Positions 804-44,727 of a DNA stretch of 64,000 nucleotides are shown piece by piece. Under the pieces are notes generated by a model, which worked only from the letters and a program-made list of their open reading frames with translations, ran no database searches and was not told the origin of the DNA. How positions within the stretch are numbered: position 1 is the first letter of the stretch; every line of letters starts with the position of its first letter. The position numbers were made by a program, and so were the translations under genes. This DNA is from Pseudomonas lijiangensis (GTDB lineage: Bacteria > Pseudomonadota > Gammaproteobacteria > Pseudomonadales > Pseudomonadaceae). The stretch covers positions 1,240,001 to 1,304,000 of the forward strand of contig NZ_CP076668.1 in NCBI RefSeq assembly GCF_018968705.1, read 5' to 3'.

Positions 804-2998
<2,195 letters not shown>

Positions 2999-3387: not shown

Positions 3388-3409
3388 GTACCATCTTTTA
3401 CCAATCGAC

Positions 3410-3428: not shown

Positions 3429-3449
3429 GCGTTCTAAGCGGGCGGCGTG

Positions 3450-5318: not shown

Positions 5319-5327
5319 GGGGCTGCC

Positions 5328-6239
5328 ATGTTACGTACCATCAACTTCATGGGCGTTCGCAATGTCGCGTTCGCCGTTACCATGCTCCTTACTGCACTGG
5401 CGCTGTTCAGCTGGTTCCATAAAGGGCTTAACTTCGGTCTGGATTTCACCGGCGGTACGCTGATCGAGCTGACCTACGAGCGTCCTGCTGATCTGGGCAA
5501 GGTCCGTGAGGAGCTGGCTTCGGCCGGTTTCCACGAGGCTGTGGTGCAGAGCTTCGGCGCGACCACCGACTTGCTGGTGCGCATGCCGGGTGAAGACCCG
5601 CAACTGGGTACTCAGGTAGCCGACGCGCTGCGCAAGGCGGGTGCCGATAACCCGGCCACCGTCAAGCGTGTCGAGTTCGTCGGCCCGCAGGTCGGTGAAG
5701 AGCTGCGTGACCAGGGTGGTATCGGCATGTTGCTGGCCCTGGGTGGCGTTCTGATCTATCTGGCTTTCCGCTTCCAGTGGAAGTTTGCGGTCGGTGCGAT
5801 CATTTCCCTGATTCACGACGTAGTCGTGACCATGGGTATCCTGTCGTTCTTCCAGATCACGTTCGACCTGACGGTTCTGGCGGCGGTGCTGGCGATCATC
5901 GGTTACTCGCTCAACGACACCATTGTCGTGTTCGACCGGGTCCGTGAAAACTTCCGCCTGCTGCGCAAGGCTTCGCTGATCGAGAACATCAACATCTCCA
6001 CCACCCAGACATTGCTGCGCACCATCGCGACTTCGGTCTCGACGCTGCTGGCAATCATTGCGTTGTGGGCGTTCGGTGGTGACAGCCTGGAAGGCTTCTC
6101 CATCGCGTTGTTCATCGGTGTTCTGGCGGGTACTTACTCGTCGATCTACATCGCCAACGTGATGCTGATCTGGCTGAACCTGACCACCGAGGATCTGATT
6201 CCTCCGGTTGTCACCGAGAAGGCGGATGATTTGCCTTGA
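5328..6239 (+). CDS. secF: Protein translocase subunit SecF
   Basis: SecF is the partner of SecD. The 303-aa protein has an N-terminal TM, the GLDFTGGTLIEL motif (about residues 36-47), a periplasmic domain and five further TM helices with GYSLNDTIVVFDRVREN (about residue 190). AAGGGG before ATG provides the ribosome binding site. It is the last gene of the queA-tgt-yajC-secDF unit; a terminator follows at 6310-6341. Confidence 0.97.
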   Translation: MLRTINFMGVRNVAFAVTMLLTALALFSWFHKGLNFGLDFTGGTLIELTYERPADLGKVREELASAGFHEAVVQSFGATTDLLVRMPGEDPQLGTQVADALRKAGADNPATVKRVEFVGPQVGEELRDQGGIGMLLALGGVLIYLAFRFQWKFAVGAIISLIHDVVVTMGILSFFQITFDLTVLAAVLAIIGYSLNDTIVVFDRVRENFRLLRKASLIENINISTTQTLLRTIATSVSTLLAIIALWAFGGDSLEGFSIALFIGVLAGTYSSIYIANVMLIWLNLTTEDLIPPVVTEKADDLP

Positions 6240-6251
6240 TGGCCAGCTGTG

Positions 6252-6289
6252 GTGGGAGCCAATCCATTCGCGAATGAATTCGCTCCTAC
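6252..6289. repeat. REP element (imperfect pair)
   Basis: GTGGGAGCCAATCCATTCGCGAATGAATTCGCTCCTAC spans these bases as a nearly self-complementary unit of the same REP family as at 414-503. Confidence 0.65.
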
Positions 6290-6309
6290 TGGAAATGAAG
6301 AAATGAAAA

Positions 6310-6341
6310 GGCGCGAGTTTTCGGAACTCGCGCCTTTTTTT
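6310..6341 (+). terminator. Terminator after secF
   Basis: GGCGCGAGTT-TTCGG-AACTCGCGCC is a 10-bp GC-rich stem followed by seven T. Confidence 0.9.
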
Positions 6342-6404
6342 ATGCTCCAAGGCTTGGCAGTGCGTAGGAAAGAATCTACGCGTCCGTAGGTCAGGAGGTT
6401 CAAA

Positions 6405-6947
6405 GTGAACAAGTCTCTGCTTGTTGGTGCTGTGTTGGGTGCTGCTGTCGTTACCGCTGGTGGCGCTGTTGCCACCTACAGCCTGGTAAAGGGCGGCCCA
6501 GAGTATGCAGATGTGTTGGCCGTCGAGCCGATCAAGGAACAAATCAAGACCCCTCGTGAGGTCTGCAAGGATGTCGCCGTTACCCACCGTGCTCCGGTCA
6601 AGGACGAGCATCAGATCGTGGGTAGCGTGATCGGTGCTGTGGCGGGTGGCTTGCTCGGTAACCAGATCGGTGGCGGTAACGGCAAGAAGATTGCCACGGT
6701 CGCCGGTGCGGTAGGCGGTGGTTATGCGGGTAACAAGGTTCAGGAAGGCATGCAGAACCGCGATACCTACACCACGACTGAAACGCGTTGCAATACCGTC
6801 AACGATATCAGCGACAAGGTCGTGGGCTACAACGTGAAGTACAAGTTGAACGAGAAGGTTGGACAGGTCCGTATGGCCAATGATCCGGGGAGTCAGATCC
6901 CTGTGGACAAGAATGGTCAGCTGATTCTGAGCCAGGCTGCTCAATAA
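6405..6947 (+). CDS. Glycine-zipper 2TM domain protein (SlyB/PcpY-like)
   Basis: A 180-aa envelope protein. An N-terminal hydrophobic helix (residues 3-28, LLVGAVLGAAVVTAGGAV) looks like a signal anchor. The centre carries the Gly-zipper 2TM pattern IVGSVIGAVAGGLLGNQIGGG and IATVAGAVGGGYAGNKVQ (about residues 72-108). The C-terminal part has a Cys-containing TTTETRCNTV segment. Start is GTG, preceded by a strong AGGAGGT. Families of this kind are outer-membrane lipoproteins or inner-membrane proteins of unclear role; no lipobox is seen here. It lies alone between secF and suhB, with its own terminator. Confidence 0.85.
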   Translation: MNKSLLVGAVLGAAVVTAGGAVATYSLVKGGPEYADVLAVEPIKEQIKTPREVCKDVAVTHRAPVKDEHQIVGSVIGAVAGGLLGNQIGGGNGKKIATVAGAVGGGYAGNKVQEGMQNRDTYTTTETRCNTVNDISDKVVGYNVKYKLNEKVGQVRMANDPGSQIPVDKNGQLILSQAAQ

Positions 6948-6981
6948 GCCAGTCTGTGGGGGCAATCGGGCGGTGATCCGC

Positions 6982-7007
6982 TTATTCGCGAATAAATTCG
7001 CTCCTAC
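6982..7007. repeat. REP element
   Basis: TTATTCGCGAATAAATTCGCTCCTAC, a single REP copy in the intergenic space between two convergent genes. Confidence 0.65.
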
Positions 7008-7032
7008 GGGTAGTAGGCAACAGGCATAAAAA

Positions 7033-7052
7033 AAACCGGCGAAAGCCGGTTT
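7033..7052. terminator. Bidirectional terminator, glycine-zipper gene / suhB
   Basis: AAACCGGC-GAAA-GCCGGTTT with A-run on the left and T-run on the right serves both convergent genes. Confidence 0.88.
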
Positions 7053-7069
7053 TTTTACATCTGCCCGTC

Positions 7070-7885
7070 TTAGCGTTTCAGCGAAGGCGGCAGGTGTGGA
7101 GCGATGGCAGTCAGGACTGCCTTGAAGCATTTGGTGTTGCCGGCAACGATGTGGCCTTTCTCCAGGAATTCGTGACCGCCTGTGAAGTCGCTGACCAGAC
7201 CGCCTGCTTCTTGAATCAGCAGCGCGCCTGCTGCCATGTCCCACTCGGACAGGCCCGATTCCCAGAATGCGTCGAAGCGACCGGCTGCTACATAGGCCAG
7301 GTCCAGGCTGGCAGCGCCTGCGCGGCGGATGCCGGCGGTCTGGCCGACCAGGCTGCGGAACATGCCCAGGTAGTTTTCCAGGCCGTCCATTTGTGTGTCG
7401 CGGAACGGGAAGCCGGTACCCAGCAGGGCGCCTTCAAGGCTCTTGCGCTGGCTGACGCGCAGGCGACGACCGTTCAGGGCAGCGCCACGGCCACGGCTGG
7501 CGGTGAATTCTTCCTGGCGAACCGGGTCGAGAACAACAGCGTGCTCAAGGCGGCCGCGGTATTTGCAGGCGATGCTGACGGCGAAGTGCGGGATGCCACG
7601 AACGAAGTTGGTGGTGCCGTCCAGCGGGTCGATGATCCATAGGTAATCGGCGCCTTCGCCGCTGCCGGCGTGCAGGCCGCTTTCTTCGCCGAGGATGCCG
7701 TGGGTAGGGTAAGCCTTGCGCAGGGCAGTGATGATGCTCTGCTCGGCAGCACGGTCGATTTCCGTGACGTAGTCTTTGGCTTCTTTTTCGTCAACCTTGA
7801 TGGTATCCAAGCGCTCGATGGAGCGGAAAATCAATTCGCTGGCGCTGCGGGCGGCGCGCAGCGCGATATTCAGCATGGGCTGCAT
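7070..7885 (-). CDS. suhB: Inositol-1-monophosphatase family protein SuhB
   Basis: SuhB belongs to the Mg2+-dependent inositol monophosphatase family; in E. coli it also binds RNA polymerase and supports rRNA antitermination. The 271-aa protein has the metal-binding motifs GEESG (about residue 68), WIIDPLDGTTNFVRG (about 84-98) and WDMAAGALLIQEAGG (about 215). The start chosen is the ATG at 7885 (MQPMLNIALRAARSA) preceded by TAGGTGA; a TTG two codons upstream (7891) is less likely. It is divergent from trmJ. Confidence 0.96.
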   Translation of the reverse strand: MQPMLNIALRAARSASELIFRSIERLDTIKVDEKEAKDYVTEIDRAAEQSIITALRKAYPTHGILGEESGLHAGSGEGADYLWIIDPLDGTTNFVRGIPHFAVSIACKYRGRLEHAVVLDPVRQEEFTASRGRGAALNGRRLRVSQRKSLEGALLGTGFPFRDTQMDGLENYLGMFRSLVGQTAGIRRAGAASLDLAYVAAGRFDAFWESGLSEWDMAAGALLIQEAGGLVSDFTGGHEFLEKGHIVAGNTKCFKAVLTAIAPHLPPSLKR

Positions 7886-8077
7886 GGACAATTCACCTAA
7901 GGTTGTTAAAGAGAGCCGGGTATTCTATGGGTTAAGTCGAATTATTTCCAGCCCCGGCATTGTCGTCCCGATCAGGTTTTACGATTTTCCGCGGTTGCGC
8001 CTCTGTAAGGTTCGTGGCGTTAATGAGGCAGGTTCTGTAAGATTTGCACCCCTTAATTTTGTCGGTGAGCGCTCGCT

Positions 8078-8839
8078 TTGCTGCAGAACATTCGTATCGT
8101 CCTGGTCGGCACTACCCATCCCGGAAATATCGGTGGGGCTGCGCGTGCCATGAAAAACATGGGGCTTTCGCGCCTGGTACTGGTCGAGCCGCGTGTGTTC
8201 CCGTCCCCTGAGGCCGATGCGCGAGCGTCGGGTGCTGGCGATATTCTTGAAGGCGCGCAGGTCGTTGCGAGCCTTGAAGAAGCGCTGGTGGGTTGCAGTC
8301 TGGTGCTGGGCACCAGTGCCCGTGATCGCAGTCTGCCCTGGCCAATGCTTGACCCGCGTGAGTCGGGCGTGAAGGTCGTCGAGCAGGCCGGGCAGGGCGC
8401 CGAGGTTGCGCTGGTCTTCGGTCGCGAGCATGCCGGCCTGACCAATGAAGAGCTGCAGCGTTGTCATTACCACGTCCATATCCCGTCGGACCCTGCATTC
8501 AGTTCGCTCAATCTGGCGGCTGCGGTTCAGGTGCTGGCCTACGAAGTGCGCATGTCCTGGCTGGCTGCGCAGGAGTTGACGGCAGCGCCAGTCGCAACGG
8601 CGCGCAATGCCGAGCTGGCGACCATGGATGAGATGGAAGGCTTTTATGGCCATCTGGAAGCGGCGCTGGTGGACATCGCCTTTCTTGATCCCGAGAAGCC
8701 CCGTCATCTGATGGCGCGGTTGCGTCGCCTGTATGGTCGCAGCGAGGTGGAGCGCTCCGAACTGAGTATTCTGCGTGGCATCCTCACCGAGACCCAGAAA
8801 GTGGCTCGCGGTGAACCTTATAAGCGGAAGGATCAATGA
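8078..8839 (+). CDS. trmJ: tRNA (cytidine/uridine-2'-O-)-methyltransferase TrmJ
   Basis: TrmJ methylates the 2'-OH of nucleotide 32 in tRNA with SAM. The 253-aa SPOUT protein shows [22 protein letters not shown] at the N-terminus and the knot signatures [15 protein letters not shown] (about residues 105-120) and [19 protein letters not shown]. The start appears to be TTG (8078): the homologous N-terminus begins MLQNIR at this codon and no ATG or GTG is in frame nearby. Its last bases overlap cysE by 1-4 bp. Confidence 0.93.
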
Positions 8840-9615
8840 TGTTCGAACGTCTGCGCGAAGATATCCAAAGTGTTTTTCATCGTGATCCGGCTGCGCGTAA
8901 CGCTTTTGATGTGCTGACCTGCTACCCGGGCATGCATGCCATCTGGCTGCACCGGCTGGCGCACATTCTGTGGCGCCACGGCTGGAAGTGGCTGGCGCGG
9001 ATGGTGTCCAACTTCGGGCGCTGGATGACCGGTATCGAAATACATCCTGGTGCGCGCATCGGTCGTCGTTTCTTCATCGATCACGGCATGGGTATCGTGA
9101 TCGGCGAAACGGCCGAGATCGGCAACGATGTCACGCTCTATCAGGGTGTGACGCTGGGCGGCACCAGCTGGAATGCAGGCAAGCGTCACCCGACTCTGGA
9201 AGATGGTGTCGTGGTGGGCGCGGGCGCCAAGGTGCTCGGGCCGTTCACGGTGGGTGCGGGTGCCAAGATCGGCTCCAATGCCGTGGTCACCAAGGCCGTG
9301 CCTGCGGGTGCGACTGCGGTGGGGATTCCCGGTCGCATCATCGTGAAATCCGATGACGAAACGGAAGCCCGGCGCAAGGCGATGGCCGAGAAGCTGGGTT
9401 TCGATGCCTACGGCGTCAGTGCCGACATGCCGGACCCGGTTGCGCGGGCCATTGGCCAGTTGCTCGATCACTTGCAAGCTGTGGATGCCCGCCTGGAAGA
9501 CATGGGCGGCGCTCTGGGGCGTCTTGGCAGTGATTACTGCGCCAAGGAGCTGCCCAAGCTGCATGACGAGGTTTTCGATTGCGTGAAGGACAAGAGTGAA
9601 GAGAAGGTCGGCTAA
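8839..9615 (+). CDS. cysE: Serine O-acetyltransferase CysE
   Basis: CysE makes O-acetylserine from serine and acetyl-CoA, the first step of cysteine synthesis. The 258-aa protein has the N-terminal helical region and a left-handed beta-helix of hexapeptide repeats (about residues 65-170): [25 protein letters not shown] is abbreviated here to IHPGA, FIDHGMG and LGGTSW, followed by [22 protein letters not shown] at 8836 and 8839 are both possible; I chose the second, which matches MFERLREDI of relatives. Its place just before iscR is conserved in Pseudomonas and links cysteine supply with Fe-S assembly. Confidence 0.95.
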
Positions 9616-9683
9616 GGTTTGCTGAATATGGAGGCGTGTCAATACGACGCGCCTTTGCTATGATACTGCCCGCTATTTTGGCT

Positions 9684-9741
9684 AATCCCGACTATTTCAC
9701 TAGGTCTAATAGTTGACTTAAATACTCGGGAATAGCATACT
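9684..9741 (+). promoter_or_regulatory. iscR promoter with two IscR type-1 sites
   Basis: Site 1 (9684-9710) reads AATCCCGACTATTTCACTAG then GTCTAAT; site 2 (9709-9734) reads ATAGTTGACTTAAATACTCG then GGAATA. Both fit the [2Fe-2S]-IscR type 1 consensus (ATA..YGACT-A/T-rich-AGTC.G..AT). The -35 TTGACT (9713-9718) is embedded in site 2, and the -10 CATACT (9736-9741) follows at 17 bp. Holo-IscR bound here would block RNA polymerase, giving the known feedback control of the isc operon. Confidence 0.88.
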
Positions 9742-9773
9742 CGCTCCTATTCCGAACCTCCGCGGTACACGCC

Positions 9774-10265
9774 ATGCGACTGACTACAAAAGGCCGATAC
9801 GCTGTAACAGCAATGCTTGACCTGGCATTGCATGCGCAGCACGGGCCAGTGTCTCTGGCCGATATCTCTGAGCGGCAAGGCATTTCCCTGTCTTACCTTG
9901 AGCAATTGTTCGCCAAGCTGCGCCGCAGCAATCTGGTCTCGAGCGTGCGTGGTCCTGGTGGTGGCTATCAGTTGTCCCGCGACATGCAGGGCATTCAGGT
10001 TGCTCAGGTTGTCGATGCGGTCAATGAGTCCGTCGATGCCACTCGTTGCCAGGGCCTGGGTGATTGCCATGCCGGTGATACCTGCCTGACCCACCACCTG
10101 TGGTGCGACCTCAGCCAGCAGATTCATGAATTTTTAAGCGGTATCAGCTTGGCGGACCTTGTCACTCGCCGTGAGGTGCAGGAAGTCGCCCAGCGCCAGG
10201 ACATGCGCCGCAGTAATAACAATGCGTCGCAGCTGGGAAAGATTGAAACGTCCGCCGTCGAATGA
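9774..10265 (+). CDS. iscR: Fe-S cluster assembly transcriptional regulator IscR
   Basis: IscR is an Rrf2-family [2Fe-2S] repressor of the isc operon. The 163-aa protein has the winged helix ([18 protein letters not shown], residues 1-18; [16 protein letters not shown]) and the cluster ligands in [19 protein letters not shown] (Cys about 92, 98 and 104, His about 107). The C-terminus is Asn/Ser-rich and variable. It heads iscRSUA-hscBA-fdx-iscX. Confidence 0.97.
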
Positions 10266-10309
10266 ACGCAGATGAATGAGCGGTGCGCCTGCCTGATAGG
10301 AGAGATTCA

Positions 10310-11524
10310 ATGAAGTTGCCGATTTACCTCGATTACTCTGCGACCACGCCGGTCGATCCGCGCGTAGCGCAGAAAATGATGGATTGCCTGCTGGTTGACG
10401 GAAACTTCGGTAACCCGGCTTCCCGCTCCCACGTATTTGGCTGGAAAGCCGAAGAGGCCGTTGAAAACGCCCGCCGTCAGGTCGCGGATCTGGTCAACGC
10501 CGATCCACGCGAAATCGTCTGGACCTCCGGTGCCACCGAGTCCGACAACCTGGCCATCAAGGGTGTAGCGCATTTCTACGCCACCAAGGGCAAGCACATC
10601 ATCACCTCCAAGGTCGAGCACAAAGCCGTTCTCGACACCACGCGCCAACTGGAGCGTGAAGGTTTTGAAGTGACCTACATCGAGCCGGGCGAAGACGGCC
10701 TGATCACACCTGCAATGATCGAAGCTGCCCTGCGCGACGACACCATCCTGGTTTCGATCATGCATGTGAACAACGAGATCGGCACCATCAACGACATCGC
10801 TGCCATCGGTGAACTGACCCGTTCGCGTGGGGTGTTGTTCCATGTCGATGGCGCTCAGTCCACCGGCAAGGTTGAAATCGATCTGGCCAGCCTCAAGGTT
10901 GACCTTATGTCGTTCTCGGCCCACAAGACCTACGGTCCAAAGGGTATCGGCGCGCTGTACGTGAGCCGCAAGCCGCGTGTTCGCCTCGAAGCGACCATGC
11001 ACGGTGGCGGTCACGAGCGTGGCATGCGTTCCGGCACGTTGGCGACTCACCAGATCGTCGGCATGGGCGAAGCTTTCCGTATCGCCAAGGAAGAGATGGC
11101 GAGCGAGAACGTTCGCATCAAGGCCCTGAGCGACCGCTTCTTCAAGCAGGTCGAAGATCTGGAAGAGCTGTACGTCAATGGCAGCCTGACTGCTCGCGTA
11201 CCGCACAACCTGAACCTGAGCTTCAACTATGTCGAAGGCGAGTCGCTGATCATGGCGCTCAAGGATCTGGCGGTTTCGTCCGGTTCGGCCTGTACGTCGG
11301 CATCGCTTGAACCTTCGTACGTGCTACGCGCCCTTGGTCGTAATGACGAACTGGCACATAGCTCGATACGCTTCACTTTTGGTCGCTTCACGACTGAAGA
11401 AGAGATTGACTACGCCGCGCAGAAAGTCTGCGAGGCTGTTACCAAGCTGCGCGCTCTTTCGCCGCTGTGGGACATGTTCAAAGATGGCGTCGATATCTCC
11501 AAGATCGAGTGGGCGGCGCACTAA
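10310..11524 (+). CDS. iscS: Cysteine desulfurase IscS
   Basis: IscS is a PLP enzyme that converts cysteine to alanine and hands the persulfide to IscU, ThiI, TusA and others. The 404-aa protein has the PLP lysine in [12 protein letters not shown] (about residue 206) and the mobile active-site Cys in [17 protein letters not shown] (about 328). I use the ATG at 10310, preceded by ATAGGAGAGA, over an upstream GTG at 10283. Confidence 0.98.
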
Positions 11525-11607
11525 TTTAAAGTCGCCGCCACACAGGCCGGGAGCAACCCCGTTGACCGGCCTGTAGAGCGACTCCCTGATGTGAGAGGAA
11601 CATAATC

Positions 11608-11994
11608 ATGGCTTACAGCGAAAAGGTCATCGACCACTACGAGAACCCGCGCAACGTTGGCAAGATGAACGCGGAAGATCCTGATGTTGGCACCGGCATG
11701 GTCGGCGCTCCTGCGTGCGGCGACGTGATGCGTCTGCAGATCAAGGTCAACGAGCAGGGTGTCATCGAAGACGCCAAGTTCAAGACTTATGGCTGCGGCT
11801 CCGCCATCGCTTCCAGCTCCCTGGCGACCGAGTGGATGAAGGGCAAGACTCTGGATGAAGCAGAGACCATCAAGAACACTCAGCTGGCTGAAGAGCTTGC
11901 TCTGCCTCCGGTGAAGATTCACTGCTCGGTACTCGCGGAAGACGCCATCAAGGCGGCCGTTCGTGACTACAAGCAGAAGAAAGGCTTGCTGTAA
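11608..11994 (+). CDS. iscU: Fe-S cluster scaffold IscU
   Basis: IscU is the scaffold on which [2Fe-2S] clusters form. The 128-aa protein has the three cluster cysteines in PACGDVM, YGCGSAI and IHCSVLA, the Asp next to the first Cys, and the HscA recognition motif LPPVK just before the third Cys. RBS GAGAGGA. Confidence 0.98.
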   Translation: MAYSEKVIDHYENPRNVGKMNAEDPDVGTGMVGAPACGDVMRLQIKVNEQGVIEDAKFKTYGCGSAIASSSLATEWMKGKTLDEAETIKNTQLAEELALPPVKIHCSVLAEDAIKAAVRDYKQKKGLL

Positions 11995-12039
11995 GAAGCG
12001 GTCTTTTCAGAGAAAGCTGGCGACAAGAAAGGAGTTCCG

Positions 12040-12363
12040 ATGGCTATCAGCATGACAGAAGCTGCCGCTAACCACGTACGTCGTTCCCTCGACGGGCGCG
12101 GCAAAGGTGATGGCATTCGTCTTGGGGTTCGCACCACAGGCTGTTCAGGTCTTGCCTATGTGCTCGAGTTCGTCGACGAGGCGGGCGCCGAGGACAGCGT
12201 GTTCGAACTGCATGGCGTCAAGGTGATTATCGACCCGAAAAGCCTGGTCTATCTCGACGGCACCGAACTCGATTTCGTCCGTGAAGGTTTGAACGAAGGC
12301 TTCAAGTTCAATAACCCCAATTCGCGCGGTGAGTGCGGCTGCGGCGAAAGCTTCAACGTCTGA
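12040..12363 (+). CDS. iscA: Iron-sulfur cluster assembly protein IscA
   Basis: IscA is an A-type carrier for [4Fe-4S] delivery. The 107-aa protein has the three conserved cysteines in TTGCSGLAY and the C-terminal CGCGESF. RBS AAAGGAG. Order and spacing are those of the isc operon. Confidence 0.97.
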
Positions 12364-12374
12364 GGCTTTTATCC

Positions 12375-12896
12375 GTGGGTACTCCTTGTCACTTCGCCCT
12401 GTTCGACCTCAAGCCCGATTTTCGTCTTGATCTCGACCAGTTGGCGACGCGCTATCGTGAGCTGGCGCGCAGCGTACATCCAGACCGTTTTGCTGACGCC
12501 GACGAGCGTGAGCAGCGTCTGGCGCTTGAGCATTCCGCCCGCCTCAACGAGGCCTATCAGACCCTCAAGAGCGCCCCGAAACGAGCGCGCTACCTGTTGG
12601 TCATGAAAGGCGATGAGGTGCCGCTGGAAGTCACTGTCCACGATCCCGATTTTCTTCTGCAGCAGATGCAATGGCGCGAAGAGCTGGAGGATCTGCAGGA
12701 TGAGGCTGATCTGGCGGGTGTCGCGGTCTTCAAGCGCCGCCTCAAAAGCGCTCAGGATGAACTGAACGAAAGCTTCGCCGCCTGTTGGGACGATGCTGCA
12801 CAGCGCGAGCACGCCGAACGGCTGATGCGGCGTATGCAGTTCCTCGACAAGCTTTCCTACGAAGTGCGCCAGCTGGAAGAGCGCCTCGACGATTAA
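12375..12896 (+). CDS. hscB: Fe-S assembly co-chaperone HscB
   Basis: HscB is the J-domain partner that brings IscU to HscA. The 173-aa protein has a J domain (residues 1-75) with HPDRF and a C-terminal three-helix IscU-binding domain. The start is a GTG (12375, [12 protein letters not shown]); it lies 11 bp after iscA. An upstream in-frame ATG would overlap iscA and adds non-homologous residues. Confidence 0.95.
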
Positions 12897-12940
12897 CCCC
12901 GTGCCGCCCCGGCCGCACGCCTGTGATTATTCAGAAAAGC

Positions 12941-14803
12941 ATGGCCTTATTGCAGATCGCTGAACCCGGGCAAAGTCCTAAACCGCACCAGCGTCGTCTG
13001 GCTGTCGGTATTGACCTGGGCACTACCAATTCGCTGGTGGCTGCATTGCGCAGCGGCCTTTCCGAGCCCCTGGCCGATGCCGACGGGCAGATCATTCTGC
13101 CGTCTGCGGTGCGCTATCACGCCGATCGCGTCGAGGTCGGGCTGTCGGCCAAGGCGGCTGCCTCTGTCGATCCGTTCAATACCGTGCTGTCGGTCAAGCG
13201 CCTCATGGGGCGCGGCCTCAGTGACGTGAAGCAGCTGGGCGAGCAATTGCCCTATCGCTTTGTCGAGGGCGAGTCGCACATGCCGTTCATCGACACCGTC
13301 CAGGGGCCGAAAAGCCCGGTGGAAGTGTCGGCGGATATTCTCAAGGTGCTGCGTCAGCGTGCCGAAGCTACGTTGGGTGGCGATCTGGTGGGTGCGGTCA
13401 TTACCGTGCCGGCCTATTTCGACGATGCTCAGCGCCAGGCCACCAAGGACGCCGCCAGACTGGCCGGCCTCAATGTGCTGCGCCTGCTCAACGAGCCGAC
13501 GGCTGCTGCGGTTGCCTACGGTCTGGACCAGAAAGCCGAAGGCGTGGTCGCCATTTACGACCTGGGCGGCGGTACGTTCGATATTTCCATTCTGCGCCTG
13601 ACTGGCGGTGTTTTCGAAGTGCTGGCCACTGGCGGCGATACTGCATTGGGTGGCGATGATTTCGATCACGCGATTGCCAGCTGGATTGTGGCTGATGCCG
13701 GTCTGTCGGCCAGTCTCGATCCTTCCGAGCAGCGCAGCCTGTTGCAGACTGCCTGCGCGGCGAAAGAAGCCCTGACCGATACTGATTCGGTAGAAGTCGC
13801 CTATGGCGACTGGCGTGGTGTTCTGACACGCGAGGCCTTCAACGCCCTGATCGAGCCGATGGTTGCTCGCAGCCTCAAGGCTTGCCGTCGTGCGGTGCGC
13901 GACTCGAATATCGAGATTGAAGAAGTCGAAGCCGTGGTCATGGTTGGTGGTTCGACACGTGTGCCGCGTGTTCGTGAGGCAGTAGCCGAGCTGTTCGGTC
14001 GCCAGCCGCTGACCGAGATCGACCCCGATCAGGTGGTCGCCATTGGCGCTGCGGTCCAGGCCGATACCCTGGCGGGCAACAAGACAGATGGCGAAGCCCT
14101 GTTGTTGCTGGACGTGATTCCGCTTTCCCTTGGGCTTGAAACCATGGGCGGCCTGATGGAGAAGGTGATTCCGCGCAACACCACCATTCCCGTGGCCCGC
14201 GCTCAGGATTTCACCACGTACAAGGATGGCCAGTCGGCCATGATGATTCATGTCCTGCAGGGCGAGCGTGAGCTGATCAGCGACTGCCGTTCCCTGGCGC
14301 GCTTCGAGCTGCGCGGCATTCCGCCGATGGTGGCCGGTGCTGCGAAAATTCGTGTCACCTTTCAGGTGGATGCGGATGGCCTGCTCAGCGTGTCTGCCCG
14401 TGAACTGGGCTCGGGGATCGAGTCGAGCATTCAGGTCAAGCCGTCCTATGGCCTGACCGACGGCGAGATTGCTCGCATGCTCAAGGATTCGTTCGAGTAC
14501 GCCGGTGACGACAAGGTCGCCCGGGTGCTGCGTGAACAGCAGGTCGATGCCCAGCGCCTTGTCGAGGCGGTCGAGGCAGCGCTTGAAGTCGATGGCGATC
14601 GTCTGCTCGATGCCGAAGAGCGGATGGTGATCGACCTGCAACTGACAGAATTGCGTGAATTGATGCAAGGCACCGATGGCCCTGCCATCGAGCAGCAGAC
14701 CCGGCGTCTGTCGCAGGTGACCGATGCATTTGCTGCCCGACGCATGAATTCGACGGTGAAAGCCGCACTCGCGGGGCGCAACCTGAATGATATTGAGGAA
14801 TAA
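12941..14803 (+). CDS. hscA: Fe-S assembly chaperone HscA
   Basis: HscA is the Hsp70-type ATPase that releases clusters from IscU. The 620-aa protein has [13 protein letters not shown] (about residues 22-34), [25 protein letters not shown] in the ATPase domain, and a substrate-binding domain beginning near [17 protein letters not shown]. The ATG at 12941 ([10 protein letters not shown]) gives the usual length; the frame extends upstream into hscB but without homology. Confidence 0.97.
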
Positions 14804-36135: not shown

Positions 36136-37713
36136 ATGGCCCTCGATATTCACGCCCACCGTATCCTGATCCTCGATTTCGGCTCCCAGTACACCCAGCT
36201 GATTGCCCGCCGCGTGCGTGAAATCGGCGTGTACTGCGAACTGCATCCGTTCGACATGGACGATGAAGCGATTCGCGAATTCGCCCCGCGCGGGATCATC
36301 CTCGCCGGCGGCCCCGAGTCCGTGCACGAAGCCAACAGCCCACGTGCTCCGCAAGCCGTATTCGACCTCAACGTGCCGATCTTCGGCATCTGCTATGGCA
36401 TGCAGACCATGGCCGAGCAGTTGGGTGGCCGCGTTGAAGGTTCCGACCTGCGCGAATTCGGCTACGCCCGTGTCGATGTCGTCGGCAAGAGCCGCGTACT
36501 CGACGGCATCGAAGACCACGTGGATGCCGATGGCGTCCTGGGCCTCGATGTCTGGATGAGCCATGGCGACAAGGTCACCGAGATTCCGGACGGTTTCCAC
36601 GTTCTGGCCAGCACCCCGAGCTGCCCTATCGCCGGCATGGCTGACGACACCCGTGGCTACTACGGCGTGCAGTTCCACCCTGAAGTGACCCACACCAAGC
36701 AGGGCGGTCGCATCCTGTCGCGTTTCATCCTCGATATCTGTGGTTGTGAAGCGCTGTGGACCCCGTCGCACATTGCTGACGACGCCATTGCCAGCATCCG
36801 TGCCCAGGTCGGTACCGACAACGTTCTGCTGGGCCTGTCCGGCGGCGTCGATTCTTCAGTGGTTGCCGCTCTGTTGCACAAGGCCATTGGCGATCAACTG
36901 ACCTGCGTATTCGTCGACAACGGCTTGCTGCGCCTGCACGAAGGCGAGCAGGTCATGGCCATGTTCGCCGAGAACATGGGCGTCAAGGTCATCCGCGCCA
37001 ACGCCGAAGATCAGTTCCTGAACAATCTGGCTGGCGAAAGCGACCCGGAGAAAAAGCGCAAGATCATCGGCCGCACCTTCATCGACGTGTTCGATGCCGA
37101 ATCCTGCAAGCTCGACAACATCAAGTACCTGGCCCAAGGCACCATCTACCCGGACGTCATCGAGTCGGCTGGCGCGAAAAGCGGCAAGGCTCACGTCATC
37201 AAGTCGCACCACAACGTGGGCGGCCTGCCGGAAGAAATGAACCTCAAGCTGGTTGAACCCCTGCGCGAGCTGTTCAAGGACGAAGTCCGCCGCCTCGGCC
37301 TGGAACTCGGCCTGCCCTACGACATGGTCTACCGCCACCCATTCCCGGGCCCGGGCCTGGGCGTGCGCATCCTCGGTGAAGTGAAAAAGGAATACGCCGA
37401 CCTGCTGCGTCGCGCCGACCACATCTTCATCGAAGAACTGCGCAAGGCCGACTGGTACCACAAAGTCAGCCAGGCATTCGTCGTCTTCCAGCCAGTCAAA
37501 TCGGTTGGCGTCGTAGGCGACGGCCGCCGCTACGCCTGGGTCGTCGCCCTGCGCGCCGTAGAAACCATCGACTTCATGACCGCACGTTGGGCACACCTGC
37601 CTTACGAACTGCTGGAAACTGTCAGCGGGCGGATCATCAATGAAATCGACGGGATTTCTCGGGTGACTTACGATGTTTCGAGTAAGCCGCCGGCTACGAT
37701 TGAGTGGGAGTAA
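36136..37713 (+). CDS. guaA: GMP synthase (glutamine-hydrolysing) GuaA
   Basis: GuaA aminates XMP to GMP. The 525-aa protein has the class I amidotransferase domain ([16 protein letters not shown], Cys about 86; FHPEVTHT), the PP-loop [19 protein letters not shown] (about residue 235) and the C-terminal dimer domain ending PPATIEWE. Its last 13 coding bases are the left copy of the island's direct repeat, so insertion left the protein end intact. Confidence 0.98.
37699..37711. repeat. attL-type direct repeat at guaA 3' end
   Basis: ATTGAGTGGGAGT, encoding the last residues IEWE of GuaA; the identical 13-mer recurs at 44715-44727. The guaA 3' end is a known integration hotspot for genomic islands. 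Confidence 0.85.
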
Positions 37714-38091: not shown

Positions 38092-40170
38092 ATGCGGATC
38101 GAGCGCGTTGAGATTCAAAATTTCAGACTGCTTCAGAACGTCAGTCTTGGCCTAGAAGACGGCACAACACTGATCGTCGGGCGCAACAATTGCGGCAAAA
38201 CCTCCATAGCTGAGGTGTTCCGCCGGCTCCTTTCAGACCGGACTCCCTCTTTCAGGCTTGAGGATTTCTCTCTGGGGAGTCACGAAGAGTTTTGGACGGC
38301 ATTCAATGCGTTTCACGGCGGAATAGCTCGCTCCGACGTTGCTGCCATGCTTCCCGTTGTCAGGGTCACATTGGACATCTCCTATGACGTGGATGCCCCA
38401 GACCTGGGGCAGCTCAGCGAATGCATAGTAGACCTAGATCCAGATTGCTCTTGTGCGCGCATCGTCTTGACGTATGGACCGCGGGCGACAGGCCTTGAGT
38501 CGCTTTTCGCAGAAACGAATGCCCCCGACACTGTGCAGGAGGATCAACGTCCTAGCTTCTTCAGCCTGATAAAGAAGCGTTTGGCGGGGGCCTACGAGCC
38601 CCGTTTGGAAGCGGTTGACCCCAATGATCCTACGAACCGCAAGGGCCTCGACCTAAAATCACTCACCACGTTGATCCGCGGCGGATTCATCAATGCGCAA
38701 CGGGGCTTGGATGACGATACACACCGAGAGCGCGATGTCCTTGGGAAGGTGGTGGAGGTGCTGTTCCAATCGGCATTGACTGACCCCACAGATCCCGAGA
38801 AACGAACTACGGCGGAGCAGCTCCATGGAGCGGTGGAGAAAATTCAAAAGGAGCTGCATGACGGTTTCAACGCTGGACTGACTTCGCTGCTCCCTACGTT
38901 TGAGCTTTTCGGCTACCCAGGGCTAGAAGACCCAGGCCTCACCACTGTGACGACCTTCGATGTCGAGCGCCTGCTTAAAGACCACACGCAGGTCAGATAC
39001 AGGGGGGTAAACGGCCTGACACTCCCGGAAAGCTACAACGGACTCGGCGTCCGTAACCTGGTGTACATCCTTCTGCAATTACTGAAATTCTTCAGAGAGT
39101 TTCAAGCTACGCCGGCAGCCGCAAGCGTACACCTCATCTTCATTGAAGAGCCTGAAGCCCACTTGCATCCGCAAATGCAGGAGGTCTTCATCCGACAATT
39201 GCACATGATCAAGGGCGCGTTCGAGCAGCAGCTGAATGGCAGCCGTCCGTGGCCAGTGCAGTTTGTAATTTCCACCCACTCTCCACACATGGCCAACGAA
39301 GCGCGCTTCGAAACCATGCGTTACTTTCTCTCTGTGAGCGGTGAAAACGGGATTCGGCAGTCCAAGATCAAAGACCTGAGGCAGGGCATGGGCCAGGCTC
39401 CTGCACCGGACAGAGATTTTCTCTATCAGTACCTGACGCTCACTCGATGCGACCTGTTCTTTGCAGATAAAGCCATCTTGATCGAGGGGACTTCAGAGCG
39501 ATTGCTGCTACCAACCATGATCGCCAAAACTGACGCGGCTGCGGTGGGTGAACCTCAGTTGGCTAGTCAGTACTTGACGGTTATGGAGGTTGGCGGCGCG
39601 TATGCACACCGGTTTCATGATCTACTCACCTTCTTGGAACTGCGCACGCTGATCGTTACCGACATCGACTCCGTCAAACCGAATGCAGAAAGAAAGCGGA
39701 AAGCTTGTCTCGTTTCAGAGGGTCTGTTTACGAGCAATGCGTGCCTCAAAGACTGGTTTGAGGCCGAAGTCACTCCTGCCCAACTGCTGGCGAAAACGCC
39801 AGCAGAGAAGACCATAGGGTTGAGGCGCATCGCTTACCAAATTCCGGAGGGGAACGAACCCGGGCCTTCAGGCAGAAGCTTTGAGGACGCGTTCATCCTG
39901 GCGAACCTTGATCGATTTCAGCTGGGGCAGGGCGATGTCGCATCCCAAGCTTACGAGCATGCGGCGGACCAGAAAAAATCAGCTTTTGCGTTGAAGTACG
40001 CGATTGATGATACGAACTGGAACGTGCCTAGATACATTGCTGAAGGATTGCGTTGGCTAGCAGTTGGGGCGCCGGTCGTTGATGCCCAAATGGCTGCTCG
40101 GGCCATGGCCGCAGTTGTAGAGGTTGTTGGTGAGGCAGTGGCTGCTGAAGGAGAGCAAGGCGATGCCTGA
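38092..40170 (+). CDS. OLD-family ATPase/TOPRIM nuclease, Gabija GajA-like
   Basis: A 692-aa protein. The ABC-type ATPase half has Walker A GRNNCGKTS (residues 30-38), Walker B with following glutamates HLIFIEEPEAHLHPQ (about 345-359) and the H-loop VISTHSPHMAN (about 395). The C-terminal TOPRIM half has the Glu motif AILIEGTSERLLLP (about 462-475) and the DxD motif LIVTDIDSV (about 520-528). This is the class 2 OLD architecture, and the coupled UvrD-like helicase gene is the class 2/Gabija arrangement. GajA proteins nick phage DNA when nucleotides are depleted. At 692 aa it is longer than typical GajA (about 580). ATG 38092 follows GTAGGGA. Confidence 0.85.
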   Translation: MRIERVEIQNFRLLQNVSLGLEDGTTLIVGRNNCGKTSIAEVFRRLLSDRTPSFRLEDFSLGSHEEFWTAFNAFHGGIARSDVAAMLPVVRVTLDISYDVDAPDLGQLSECIVDLDPDCSCARIVLTYGPRATGLESLFAETNAPDTVQEDQRPSFFSLIKKRLAGAYEPRLEAVDPNDPTNRKGLDLKSLTTLIRGGFINAQRGLDDDTHRERDVLGKVVEVLFQSALTDPTDPEKRTTAEQLHGAVEKIQKELHDGFNAGLTSLLPTFELFGYPGLEDPGLTTVTTFDVERLLKDHTQVRYRGVNGLTLPESYNGLGVRNLVYILLQLLKFFREFQATPAAASVHLIFIEEPEAHLHPQMQEVFIRQLHMIKGAFEQQLNGSRPWPVQFVISTHSPHMANEARFETMRYFLSVSGENGIRQSKIKDLRQGMGQAPAPDRDFLYQYLTLTRCDLFFADKAILIEGTSERLLLPTMIAKTDAAAVGEPQLASQYLTVMEVGGAYAHRFHDLLTFLELRTLIVTDIDSVKPNAERKRKACLVSEGLFTSNACLKDWFEAEVTPAQLLAKTPAEKTIGLRRIAYQIPEGNEPGPSGRSFEDAFILANLDRFQLGQGDVASQAYEHAADQKKSAFALKYAIDDTNWNVPRYIAEGLRWLAVGAPVVDAQMAARAMAAVVEVVGEAVAAEGEQGDA

Positions 40171-41917
40171 CAATCACGAAAGTCCCGCGGACAGAGCAGG
40201 GCGAGAAGCGCTGGAACGCATGTTCGCTTGTTTGGATGAAGGTCTAAGCTTTCGCCTGGAAGCAGGTGCTGGGGCTGGTAAGACCTATTCGCTAGAGAAG
40301 GCGCTCAGTCGATTGATTGAACACCGAGGTCCTGCGTTGATCCGGGAGCGTCAGCAAGTCGCTTGTATCACTTACACCAATGTGGCGAAAGACGAGATCA
40401 TCTCTCGCTTCCAAGCGCATCCTGCAATCCGAGCCGAGACCGTCCATGGCTTTTGCTGGTCGTTGCTCAGAGATTTTCAAACATCACTGAGAGGATTTCT
40501 TGGCGCTGAAGCTTTTTGGCGAGAGCGTTTTGAGCCGGTGGGTGGCGTAGGTAACAGGCGCATCCATTACGAAATGGGTATTCCACGCGTATCGGAGGAC
40601 GAGGTCTCGATTCGGCACGAAGATGTCCTGACATTGATGGTTCAGGCGCTTCCGTCTCCGAAGTTCAGGGCCGTATTGACTTCCCGATACCCGATCCTGT
40701 TTGTCGACGAATATCAGGACACGGATGAACATTTTGTCGGTGCACTGAAGTCGTGGTTTCTAGATCGCGGTGAGGGACCGATGATTGGCCTATTTGGTGA
40801 CCATTGGCAAAAAATCTACGACGGGGGCTGCGGCCTAGTCGTGCATGACGCCCTTCAGCCGATCGAAAAAAATGCGAATTTCCGCTCAGCATCGCGGATT
40901 GTCGATGTGCTGAATGAGATGCGGCCAGGCCTGCACCAGGAAGTGAGCGATCCTGACTTGATCGGTGAAGCCCGAGTGTTCCACACCAACCTCTGGCCTG
41001 GAGAGCGACGGACAGGAAGCGGGGGAGGACACTGGACTGGCGACACCAGTCCTGAGGCTGCTAGTGCCTACTTCGAATACTTGAAAGCTCAGCTCAGCGT
41101 GGAAGGATGGGATTTCTCTCCGAAAACGACCAAAATCCTCATCCTGAATCACAAAGGCATTGCTCGTGAGCAGGGGTACTCCTCGATCCGTGAAATTTAT
41201 GGGCAGTACAATGATCCGTGGCTGAAGAAGGAAGATCCTCACATCAAGTATTTGGCAGATCAGCTTGAGCCAGCGTGTGTCGCATACCAAAAGCGCCGAT
41301 ACGGTGCGATGTTCGGGCACCTGGCAAGCGATCGGCCAACGATTCGAAGGCACAGCGATAAAGTCGCTTGGGCTGAGGCAATGGATGCACTCCTCGAACT
41401 GAGGTTGACCGGTACCATCGGCGAGGTGATTGACTACATCATAGCCGTGCCGCAGATGCAGCTCCCCAATGCTGTGCTACGGAATGAGCAAGGGTTACAG
41501 GCCGCCGGTGTTGAACCAGGTGAGGACGAGCCACGCAGGATTACCCAGCTTCGAAAGCTCAGGGCAGTATCTTACACAGAGCTGATCGCGCTAGACCAAT
41601 TCATTGATGGGCATACGCCGTTTGCCACAAAACACGGGGTCAAGGGAGCCGAATTCGAAAACGTGATCGTTGTGTTGGGGCGCGGCTGGAACCAATATAA
41701 TTTCGCTGAAATGCTCGAGTGGTTTCAGCCGGGGCCACCGGCGAACAGGCGTGAAAAATTCGAAAGCAATCGGAATCTCTTCTACGTTGCGTGCTCTCGA
41801 CCCAAGGTCCGTTTGGCTCTGCTTTTCACTCAACTGCTGAGCCAGGCAGCGCTTGCTCAGATCACCGCGTGGTTCGGCGCTGAGCATGTATTCGAGTTGC
41901 CTGCTAACCCTGGTTGA
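40163..41917 (+). CDS. UvrD/Rep-like superfamily 1 helicase, Gabija GajB-like
   Basis: A 584-aa SF1A helicase. Motif I is EAGAGAGKTYSLE (residues 33-45), Ia CITYTNVAKDEI with TVHGFCWSLL, II PILFVDEYQDT (about 174-184), III GLFGDHWQKIY, a conserved KHGVKGAEFENVIVVLGRG near 490 and VI NLFYVACSRPKVRLALLF near 545. The ATG overlaps the nuclease stop (ATGCCTGA) and has its own AAGGAGA, so the two proteins are probably made in a fixed ratio. GajB is thought to sense or process DNA termini and activate GajA. It could also be another class 2 OLD partner helicase. Confidence 0.85.
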   Translation: MPDNHESPADRAGREALERMFACLDEGLSFRLEAGAGAGKTYSLEKALSRLIEHRGPALIRERQQVACITYTNVAKDEIISRFQAHPAIRAETVHGFCWSLLRDFQTSLRGFLGAEAFWRERFEPVGGVGNRRIHYEMGIPRVSEDEVSIRHEDVLTLMVQALPSPKFRAVLTSRYPILFVDEYQDTDEHFVGALKSWFLDRGEGPMIGLFGDHWQKIYDGGCGLVVHDALQPIEKNANFRSASRIVDVLNEMRPGLHQEVSDPDLIGEARVFHTNLWPGERRTGSGGGHWTGDTSPEAASAYFEYLKAQLSVEGWDFSPKTTKILILNHKGIAREQGYSSIREIYGQYNDPWLKKEDPHIKYLADQLEPACVAYQKRRYGAMFGHLASDRPTIRRHSDKVAWAEAMDALLELRLTGTIGEVIDYIIAVPQMQLPNAVLRNEQGLQAAGVEPGEDEPRRITQLRKLRAVSYTELIALDQFIDGHTPFATKHGVKGAEFENVIVVLGRGWNQYNFAEMLEWFQPGPPANRREKFESNRNLFYVACSRPKVRLALLFTQLLSQAALAQITAWFGAEHVFELPANPG

Positions 41918-42107
41918 GAATTCTCGTGCAGCGCTCATTGTGTAGGTTAGTCGGCGCATGTCACATCCGACTAGCTGACTAGACAGGTGGATAAACCGCG
42001 ATGGTTACTATCCGCCTGGAGAGGCCTGCACTCTGATGCCTCATTCCCGACCAACCTCACAAGCGTAATTCCAAGCACCGAAGCTGCCGACACGCGCAGT
42101 AAGATTA

Positions 42108-42296
42108 TTAGCTCGCTGCCGCCATGAAGCCTGCGGCTATCAACACCATGGCTCCCGTAGTGCCATCGATCTGCCTGCGGCGATTGCTGCTCAACCCGCC
42201 TTCGCCGACTTGGCCAAGTGCGATTGAAATTGACGCGTAAACGATGGTGTAAAGGACGATGAATGCTGCGGATACCCTATCGACTGGAGAGAACAC
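42108..42296 (-). pseudogene. Remnant of a LysE/RhtB-family exporter (C-terminal fragment)
   Basis: About 62 codons translate to a hydrophobic helix (AAFIVLYTIVYASISIALGQ), a basic loop (LSSNRRRQIDGTTG) and a final hydrophobic stretch (AMVLIAAGFMAAAS). Together these resemble the last TM pair of LysE-type amino-acid exporters. Upstream the frame degenerates into unrelated sequence (RPERTLQACERQ) and a stop, so the gene is truncated at about 42297. Assignment is by pattern only. Confidence 0.45.
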
Positions 42297-42439
42297 CTGG
42301 CGTTCGCAAGCTTGTAGGGTACGTTCAGGCCGCTACTGATATCATGGAAATCGCAGTGCGCCGGGGCGGCGACTGGGACCAGGACGGCAAGTCGAAAGAT
42401 GAGCGATTCCTCGATCTGGTCCACTTTGAGCTTTGCTGA
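42263..42439 (+). CDS. Possible 58-aa small protein
   Basis: An open frame from ATG 42263 with a good AAAGGA six bases upstream encodes a charged 58-aa product (MLRIPYRLERTPGVRKLVGY, then acidic DWDQDGKSKDERFLDLVHFELC shortened at the end). I recognise no family. Its 5' end overlaps the exporter remnant on the other strand. It may be the tail of a broken gene or chance. Confidence 0.25.
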   Translation: MLRIPYRLERTPGVRKLVGYVQAATDIMEIAVRRGGDWDQDGKSKDERFLDLVHFELC

Positions 42440-42552
42440 CGTAACCTGACTTGCTATTCCTCGGATTTGCCCGGATTTTATGAGGCAGCCGTTGCCAGGT
42501 GGCACTTTGATGTCTAGATTCCTCTAGCTGGAATTCGAATTGAGGGAGCATT

Positions 42553-42882
42553 ATGTCAAAGGTCGTTCAAGTCATCGGAGGCGTCGTAATCGCGGGACTC
42601 TCGATGGCAGCAGGATGGGTCGCCAAGAGCTGGGCTGACAGGCCTGTAAAACAGAAAATGAAGGATGATGTCGAGAAGGCCAATGCCGACTTCATGGCTC
42701 TGCTAAAGACCTTCGAGATGACGACCGAAAAAATGGAGTTCATCGTGGCTAGGGCCTCAGATGAAAGCATAACCAACGCTGAAGAGCTTCGCGAATTCCT
42801 CAAGGCATACGGCCTGAACGACATACAGGCAAACAGAGTGGTGCAGCTACGCTTTCCCGGCGAACAGCAAAGGGCAGCCTGA
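42553..42882 (+). CDS. Small membrane-anchored protein, island cassette gene 1
   Basis: A 109-aa protein. Residues 3-24 (VVQVIGGVVIAGLSMAAGWV) form one TM helix or signal anchor; residues 30-75 are a charged helix likely to be a coiled coil, and the end (EELREFLKAYGLNDIQANRVV) is a short helical domain. RBS GAGGGAG before ATG. The stop overlaps the next start (TGATG), so the two are translationally coupled. No family is recognised. A possible role is a membrane tether or regulator for the large partner (inference). Confidence 0.75.
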   Translation: MSKVVQVIGGVVIAGLSMAAGWVAKSWADRPVKQKMKDDVEKANADFMALLKTFEMTTEKMEFIVARASDESITNAEELREFLKAYGLNDIQANRVVQLRFPGEQQRAA

Positions 42883-44396
42883 TGGACGCCGAGATCAAAA
42901 AGCGTCTGGCAACATTGGGTGGTGATGACCTGATCAACACCTACGAAAGCGTGAAGTCATCGCAGCAGGTCATGCGACTGCCATCCTCCGAAACTGACAG
43001 CCTGAGCATCGGGTATGCCGTTATCATTGGCACTTTTGCTGCCATCGTTGATGTCATCATGGACAGCATGTTCCGCGAGGAAATGGAGAAGAAACACCGC
43101 GAGCGAACGCCTGAGGAGCAGGCTGTTCTTGAGGCTGAAGCCAAAAAAGCCATGGAGGAGGCCGGTGTAGAACCTGGGGGAGAGGGCGGCGATCCCGACT
43201 CAGCCATGGATTGGTACAGAACCCTCAATGAAGAGATGGAACTGAGACAAGGCCACAAGCTCAGGCCCAAAAACCACCGCATCCTTAATCATATGAATGA
43301 AGAGGCCGTCATTCAGATGCTGATGAAGGGCGAGGTTGGATTCGGCAAATTCAAAATCAAGCTCTATCCAGAAATGAGCTATGAAGCGGCCAAGAAAATC
43401 TACGACGCCCACATCAGGGCAGACCGGGGCACCAAGCAAAGCCTTCCCCTTGAAATAATGTCATGGCTTTGGGAGCAGGGCGTAAAAGCAGGCAATCCCG
43501 AGAAATTCGGTGAGGCCAATCCGCTCTATAAACTGCTCCATGCATATATGCCAAACATTGATTGGGCCAAGCTGCTCAACAAGGTTTTCCACAAGGAAGG
43601 GGTGAAAAACCCAATTCCAGAGGGCTCATCGCTTGGCGAAGCTATGCTCAAGCTTTACGAGACCGGCACTCTGAATGAACGCGTTTTCTGGACAAGCGAT
43701 TTCGGGGCGGCTTTCGGCGGCGCTAAACGACGGATCTTCATCACCGCGCTCCTTGAAGTTGGCGTTGAGATCTATGCCTTCGCCGAAGGCATATCCCTAG
43801 GATTCATCAACCTCAAAGACGGGATTGGCTCATTGGTCACAAAGGCCAAAGAGTGGAGAGCACAGCCGAAATACATGGACATGCGCATAGCAGCGCAGTG
43901 CGTATTTTGCGCTGGCAGCTCGTTCAAGGCTCTTGTCAAAGGCGACCCATGGAACCTCAACTACTTTGCCTTTGCCGCTGCTATGAGGCATCTCTGGGTT
44001 TACCCAAGGGTCCAAAGAGAGCATTACGACAGGCTCATCAACCTTTCTCAAACCTACAGATCCAGAAACTTAGCTGAATTTACTGCACGCACAGGAATCA
44101 GAATCAGACCCACGCTGACCGTTATTGAAGGAGGCAAACTCATGCCAAAATCACTTGATGATCGCCTGCACAACGCAGGGTGCCAGTCCACACGCGTTCG
44201 AGTTCTGGCGTCGAGATACCCCGATAAGCTTGAGCCCCTCATCAATATCTATGAAGAGCTTGCCCTAAGGGCTGAAGAGGATGAGGACTTCATGCCCAAG
44301 TTCGACGCACTCTGCGAAGCTTGGTACCTGGGCAAGGTCGAAGATGACTACGAGGCTATCAAAAAGCTTGAGAAAGACCTCAAGGCTATTCGCTGA
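42882..44396 (+). CDS. 504-aa protein of unknown function, island cassette gene 2
   Basis: I do not recognise this protein. Visible features: a hydrophobic segment at residues 42-61 (SIGYAVIIGTFAAIVDVIM); an acidic, Glu/Lys-rich linker (66-104) ending PGGEGGDP; a central part with NHRILNHMNEEA (131-142) and LPLEIMSWLWEQG (188-200); moderately hydrophobic helices at about 283-312 and 358-375; two Cys in QCVFCAG (340-344); and a charged helical C-terminus. No nuclease, ATPase or protease signature is evident. A hairpin CGAAGCTG-TAGAC-CAGCTTCG (44398-44418) follows the stop. Its place beside a Gabija-like pair inside a guaA-linked island suggests a defence role (inference). Confidence 0.75.
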   Translation: MDAEIKKRLATLGGDDLINTYESVKSSQQVMRLPSSETDSLSIGYAVIIGTFAAIVDVIMDSMFREEMEKKHRERTPEEQAVLEAEAKKAMEEAGVEPGGEGGDPDSAMDWYRTLNEEMELRQGHKLRPKNHRILNHMNEEAVIQMLMKGEVGFGKFKIKLYPEMSYEAAKKIYDAHIRADRGTKQSLPLEIMSWLWEQGVKAGNPEKFGEANPLYKLLHAYMPNIDWAKLLNKVFHKEGVKNPIPEGSSLGEAMLKLYETGTLNERVFWTSDFGAAFGGAKRRIFITALLEVGVEIYAFAEGISLGFINLKDGIGSLVTKAKEWRAQPKYMDMRIAAQCVFCAGSSFKALVKGDPWNLNYFAFAAAMRHLWVYPRVQREHYDRLINLSQTYRSRNLAEFTARTGIRIRPTLTVIEGGKLMPKSLDDRLHNAGCQSTRVRVLASRYPDKLEPLINIYEELALRAEEDEDFMPKFDALCEAWYLGKVEDDYEAIKKLEKDLKAIR

Positions 44397-44714: not shown

Positions 44715-44727
44715 ATTGAGTGGGAGT
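44715..44727. repeat. attR-type direct repeat
   Basis: ATTGAGTGGGAGT, identical to 37699-37711. It is followed by GA so that it again reads IEWE-stop, the probable original end of guaA before insertion. Confidence 0.85.

Follow-up and report, generated by a model that had tools for sequence, protein, structure and literature searches.

In a 64,000-nucleotide stretch of the Pseudomonas lijiangensis chromosome, which we refer to as the window, two overlapping genes (A and B) lie in a genomic island next to the anti-phage system Gabija. B very probably makes two proteins, the full-length product and its free C-terminal domain (CTD), the latter from an internal start, and relatives of this domain occur in some jumbo phages behind a putative frameshift site. 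The explanation we favour, tentatively and with a probability of about 0.4, is that B is a membrane-associated effector restrained by the domain nested within it, and that jumbo phages have copied this domain as counter-defence.

The gene pair A-B and its products

The pair and its nested gene have the following features in the window.

42553-42882, + strand: gene A, 109 aa, with N-terminal hydrophobic stretch and polar tail
42882-44396, + strand: gene B, full length, 504 aa, helical to about residue 410, loose linker at 412-422, CTD from residue 421
44130-44134, + strand: internal Shine-Dalgarno sequence GGAGG, the strongest of 22 in-frame start contexts in B
44142-44396, + strand: nested gene for the CTD, 84 aa from the ATG at 44142, with conserved start residue and jumbo-phage homology

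A preliminary description of this DNA, made from the letters alone, had reported the two open reading frames as coupled, and this arrangement was found at the same coordinates: the TGA stop codon of A (42880-42882) and the ATG start codon of B (42882-42884) have one base in common. The hydrophobic stretch of A, 19 residues beginning at residue 5, has a mean Kyte-Doolittle value of 1.8. In B hydrophobicity peaks at residues 41-60 and 285-304 (approximate limits), where the family mean reaches 1.65 and 1.47, respectively; as the first peak is seen in the mean of the whole family, the N-terminal hydrophobic segment previously ascribed to B is real. The description had also stated that neither protein shows a recognised family, and indeed there was no credible match to Pfam, PHROG, PADLOC or NCBIfam models; with the profiles of PADLOC-DB 2.0.0, neither A nor B matched any family at E<=0.1. 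Homology of either protein to a housekeeping or conjugation family, which would have spoken against a defence role, was looked for and no such family was found. Three sequences among B and its 45 relatives touched DUF7090, a family to which no function has been assigned.

The database search with B returned 51 matches, including one near-copy of itself. The alignment was built from B and 45 full-length relatives (46 sequences), leaving out the near-copy and five partial matches. The 45 relatives are 43-68% identical to the B of the window, and the names of their sources include Pseudomonas nitroreducens, P. luteola, Thalassospira marina, Pusillimonas, Alcaligenes faecalis and an Aliidongia assembly. 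With this number of matches and of alignable full-length relatives, B must be regarded as a genuine gene and not as a chance open reading frame; the same holds for A, whose counterparts overlap B in all four loci described below. Among whole genomes, B was present in 3 of the 398 making up the genus sample, the genome of the window being one of the three, and in 1 of 398 in each of the phylum and family samples, this one being again the window's own genome. Judged by these samples and by the alignment, the B family is rare but well conserved.

The AlphaFold2 model of B (mean pLDDT 85, pTM 0.61) is helical to approximately residue 410, drops below pLDDT 50 at residues 412-422, and ends in a separate helical C-terminal domain. 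A fold search with the model gave no match that would account for the first 410 residues.

A probable internal start in gene B

The internal GGAGG and the ATG that follows it (44130-44144 together) fall within the disordered linker, ahead of the last 84 residues of B. Residue 421 of B, a methionine in the loose stretch, is preceded by GGAGG and then seven bases. Four independent loci could be read for their context: the window, Pseudomonas sp. REP124 (L001), Pusillimonas sp. T2 (L002) and a plasmid of P. serbica (L003). The same GGAGG layout is found in L001 (with GTG) and in L003 (with ATG), and the internal site of L002 consists of GAGGAG, nine bases and ATG. When all in-frame ATG, GTG and TTG codons located 20 or more codons away from both ends of B were scored for Shine-Dalgarno pairing, the internal site ranked first out of 22, 37, 47 and 35 starts in the window, L001, L002 and L003, respectively. 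Its lead was wide in the window and in L001, and narrow in L002 (-6.7 vs. -6.3) and in L003 (-9.3 vs. -8.4).

The start residue of the nested gene is methionine in 45 and valine in one of the 46 aligned sequences (which share kinship, and thus do not represent 46 independent cases), and it precedes alignment position 424 by two to four residues. In the model of B this methionine lies inside the only residues with pLDDT below 50. Synonymous re-drawing of the codons produced an equally strong site in 336, 389, 1162 and 303 of 2000 re-draws at the four loci, a mildly favourable outcome. This control is a weak one because Gly-Gly or Glu-Glu residues by themselves imply a strong site, and since its result is only mild, the case for dual coding rests on the conserved start residue and on the rank of the site, not on codon choice. 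Dual coding of B is, as far as it can be judged from sequence, well supported. The contrary assumption, that the Shine-Dalgarno sequence arose by chance and B makes a single protein, would agree with the not extreme result of the re-drawing control and with the narrow lead in two loci; it is nevertheless very improbable, because a Met or Val has been kept in 46 of 46 sequences within a loose linker, and the site took first rank in all four loci.

Relatives of the CTD in jumbo phages

Among 50,697 phage records the CTD matched only Psa21 (two records) and, weakly, Viktualia (E 2e-3 to 6e-3); at E 0.1 there was no further match in the collection, which includes phiKZ. A scan of IMG/VR yielded four loci, one of them Psa21, thus we have four distinct jumbo phages of the Psa21 type.

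L007, 5974-6270: CTD frame of Psa21 (the other phage loci are L009, L010 and L012)

The four phage CTDs are 52-55% identical to the CTD of L003 and 42-45% to that of the window. The gene ahead of the CTD in Psa21 belongs to the phiKZ gp177 family, with the gene of an RNA polymerase beta subunit on one side and genes of virion structural proteins and the head protease on the other. The product of the upstream gene, Psa21_242 (phrog_3841; Psa21 alone was compared), is 43.7% identical to PHIKZ177 over 497 columns (2e-146), and its identity as a gp177-type structural head protein agrees with the annotation of PhiPA3 and phiKZ. The counterpart of gp177 in phage SPN3US, gp243, has tentatively been called an ejection protein (PMC5694885). 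In L009, L010 and L012, where the junction and the frame length were covered, the frame that precedes the CTD is open over about 565 codons and ends in a similar way.

In all four phages the CTD frame lacks an ATG, GTG or TTG ahead of the conserved residues, it is in the -1 frame relative to the upstream gene, and a GGGAAAG sequence ends one codon before the zero-frame stop. An in-phase heptamer, a zero-frame stop and a start-less downstream domain, the elements of a -1 frameshift layout, are thus present in 4 of 4 phages. GGGAAAG occurs a single time in the approximately 12-kb locus of each CTD phage; it is absent from the 6.6-kb loci of phages D6 and RVTF4, and the PhiPA3 locus has it, but elsewhere. 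A candidate hairpin can be drawn downstream of the heptamer, and codon pairs specifying the same residue are identical in 92 of 106 cases between slip and hairpin vs. 179 of 289 over the remaining CTD (six pairwise comparisons of the four phages). The junction is likely to give rise to a -1 frameshift product. As homology extends about 30 codons upstream of the ATG of Psa21_241 without a start codon, the annotated Psa21_241 (60 aa) starts too late; it is likely a mis-annotated frameshift product, in which an internal ATG was taken as the start. In the lambda G/GT genes a -1 frameshift on the slippery heptamer GGGAAAG adds a C-terminal domain to a minority of the molecules. The jumbo phages resemble lambda in having GGGAAAG ahead of a C-terminal domain, and differ from it in that a gp177-like head gene, rather than the gene of a tail chaperone, stands upstream.

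The upstream genes of D6 and RVTF4 are, with 78% and 70% identity, the best matches of the Psa21 gene in the collection. These two phages have no CTD, the upstream gene leads straight into a virion structural gene, which shows that the phage extension is accessory. Viktualia carries a divergent, ATG-started gene of 107 aa in the slot corresponding to the Psa21 CTD. Other genes were also seen in the slot after the gp177-like gene, in PhiPA3 (L063, 4602-5288) and in Viktualia (L008, 4684-5246), and in view of this variety the slot may collect accessory, perhaps counter-defence, genes.

In an unrooted tree of the CTD (89 columns, 62 rows) the four phage domains formed one clade among the bacterial B domains. 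The CTD-like relative in Viktualia, a weak match (E 2e-3) on a long branch, is too divergent to be placed. It is likely that the phages captured the CTD from bacteria, although the tree, being unrooted and having Viktualia on a long branch, would also accommodate the reverse direction. Stand-alone CTD proteins turned up as well, but we do not count them as separate genes: such entries may stem from truncated annotation of B or of the phage frame, and in the tree P0056 and P0060 do not differ from a B CTD. An origin of B as a simple phage fusion was likewise discarded, the B profile had no similarity to the gp177-like proteins of Psa21 and Viktualia.

The guaA island

The island that carries A-B has the following further features.

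37699-37711, + strand: left attachment repeat ATTGAGTGGGAGT, at the 3' end of guaA
38092-40170, + strand: GajA (PADLOC PDLC00063, E 2.1e-285, stretch from 38095)
40124-41917, + strand: GajB (PADLOC PDLC00113, E 2.1e-256)
44715-44727, + strand: right attachment repeat, second copy of ATTGAGTGGGAGT

The preliminary description had placed the pair in a 7-kb island linked to guaA together with a Gabija-like pair, and both statements were confirmed. There is a copy of the repeat on either side, and relatives have an empty site: in two genomes (G003, locus L054, and G004, locus L048) guaA joins directly to sequence like that to the right of 44715. In another genome (G010, locus L046) roughly 12 kb (1603-13751) lie between two copies of guaA-downstream sequence. 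The Gabija-like pair is a true Gabija by its PADLOC matches, a GajA of the AAA/OLD-TOPRIM ATPase type adjoining a UvrD-like GajB helicase; for GajA, whose longest open reading frame begins at 38059, the ATG at 38092 was chosen as start. The two genes make up the left part of the island, and the approximately 635 bases between gajB and A (41918-42552) contain no evident gene.

Another Pseudomonas species (G304) has Gabija, A and B on a segment of 6.6 kb that shares 99.2% identity with the window, in contrast to 80-87% identity of chromosomal stretches outside the island. A-B thus shares its island with Gabija and travels together with it; it differs from Gabija in consisting of separate genes beyond the gap and in having no match to the Gabija models. 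The segment forms the end of a 21.6-kb stretch between two guaA-end repeats (contig C1, approximately 4,561,400-4,583,000; loci L042 and L058), which has a tyrosine integrase at its start and contains also TrbL, a SEC-C protein, the candidate defence gene PDC-M36A and what we take to be an IS5-like fragment. No integrase was seen in the island of the window, which looks like a shortened form of a larger element. In these Pseudomonas the end of guaA seems to be a site of repeated insertion.

The pair in other loci

The pair is kept in all four independent loci, with an A-like gene (109-117 aa) that shares 1 or 4 bases with the start of B. The hydrophobic start of the A-like proteins was measured for the window and judged by eye for the other three loci. 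As the A-like proteins of these three are only 20-37% identical to the A of the window, A evolves faster than B. The contig of L001 has a restriction system of the BsuBI/PstI type and an integrase-like gene that scored below the Pfam cut-off, and in L003 a TOTE-type primase-helicase (PrimPol in PADLOC) is located about 110 bases from A. L002 contains RdgC and DUF4942 genes and, by sequence reading, an SSB-like gene; no defence gene was recognised in this one of the four loci. The defence-island profile proposed earlier thus applies to three of the four loci and not to L002. The interpretation built on it survives as far as the unknown coupled pair, the mobile-looking DNA and the defence neighbours are concerned; what it missed were the nested gene and the phage CTD.

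Discussion

It is instructive to compare B with the Rpn proteins, in which a large protein and its own C-terminal domain are made from one gene by means of an internal start; the short form is the antitoxin, it can also occur as a separate gene, and Rpn genes are found in defence islands and undergo horizontal transfer (PMC10327210). At the level of sequence, B has the RpnL/RpnS layout, with an internal start that would give the CTD alone. There are also clear differences. No Pfam nuclease, PD-(D/E)XK domains included, was matched by B at E<=1 or by its 45 relatives at E<=0.1; the model of B has two short strands only, is mostly helical and does not contain an alpha/beta nuclease core; B has a coupled partner, A; and the CTD of B is well conserved, whereas that of Rpn is highly variable. 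With no nuclease domain detected and an almost entirely helical model, B is not an Rpn. Phage-carried stand-ins for host antitoxins are known, AdfB of ICP1 is one, and Dmd and pseudo-ToxI have been named in the same context (PMC11481870). The phage CTD is proposed to be another, differing from these in that it would be fused by frameshifting to a head protein, its activity being putative. For DarA and Hdf of phage P1 a link between head assembly and counter-defence has been suggested (PMC12810830). It is the combination of the Rpn layout, the known antitoxin mimics and the DarA/Hdf link that makes us favour a nested domain that restrains the effector and that phages mimic on a head protein.

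According to this preferred explanation A-B would be a small mobile module of the defence type with three products. A would be a one-helix membrane protein translated in a coupled manner with B, and B a large helical, membrane-associated effector, as suggested by the model and the hydrophobic helices. The internal ribosome-binding site in the linker of B would provide free CTD, which, by analogy with Rpn, could bind full-length B and hold it inactive. Infection would upset the CTD:B ratio, upon which B, again by the Rpn analogy, would damage the membrane or stop the cell in some other way. In some jumbo phages of pseudomonads a -1 frameshift would add the CTD to some copies of the gp177-like head protein, and this CTD-bearing protein, a candidate for ejection, may enter the cell and silence B. 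The roles assigned here, a toxic B, an inhibitory free CTD and a phage CTD that silences B, would make up a putative toxin-antitoxin and counter-defence relationship. The most specific version, in which the capsid itself carries a virion-borne antitoxin mimic, a frameshift fusion of a head or ejection protein with the nested inhibitor domain of a defence system, we consider doubtful.

The free CTD could, instead of an inhibitor, be a helper subunit, full-length B and extra copies of the CTD forming the active complex. Cas10d with the internally translated Cas11d, or SpaO with its short form, would be the models for this. Complementary nested products have precedents (PMC10327210, PMC12132427), the internal start is conserved, and a CTD modelled as a compact helical domain would be suitable for oligomerisation. 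This arrangement alone, however, leaves the jumbo-phage CTD behind a frameshift site unexplained, and we regard it as unlikely. The phage domain would find an explanation if the CTD were a sensor, B recognising the CTD-bearing head protein, or the bacterium having captured a phage head domain as a decoy, and the phage CTD displacing the free one and thereby triggering B. The homology between the CTD of B and the open frame behind the phage head gene is in line with such a role, and the ATG-started gene of weak similarity that Viktualia has in this position suggests that the domain may be old in phages. A domain that is missing from D6 and RVTF4, and that was matched at E 0.1 in no record of the phage collection other than those of Psa21 and Viktualia, would, however, be a poor general trigger, and the phage CTDs were placed among the bacterial ones in the unrooted tree, therefore we think a sensor rather unlikely.

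Finally, A-B could have nothing to do with phage defence and be an addiction or maintenance module of mobile elements, or a gene that serves the element itself. Each of the four loci looks mobile (the guaA island, the contig with the integrase-like gene, a plasmid-like contig and a megaplasmid), as would be expected from such a module; the nearby Gabija, restriction and TOTE genes and the CTD of jumbo phages point, on the other hand, to a conflict with phages, and make this alternative improbable.

In the titles and abstract openings of the open-licence literature we found neither A-B with its nested gene nor the phage fusion described. The A-B pair bears on the question whether nested antitoxins form a class wider than Rpn, here in a protein family without assigned function. 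Clear homology ties a gene of a bacterial island to an open frame of jumbo phages that comes after a head gene and the putative frameshift site with which this gene ends. If the virion-borne mimic were true, counter-defence against a new membrane-effector system would enter the cell together with the DNA, and if the phage CTD silences B, such virion-delivered counter-defence would be relevant to the survival of giant phages in the first minutes of infection.
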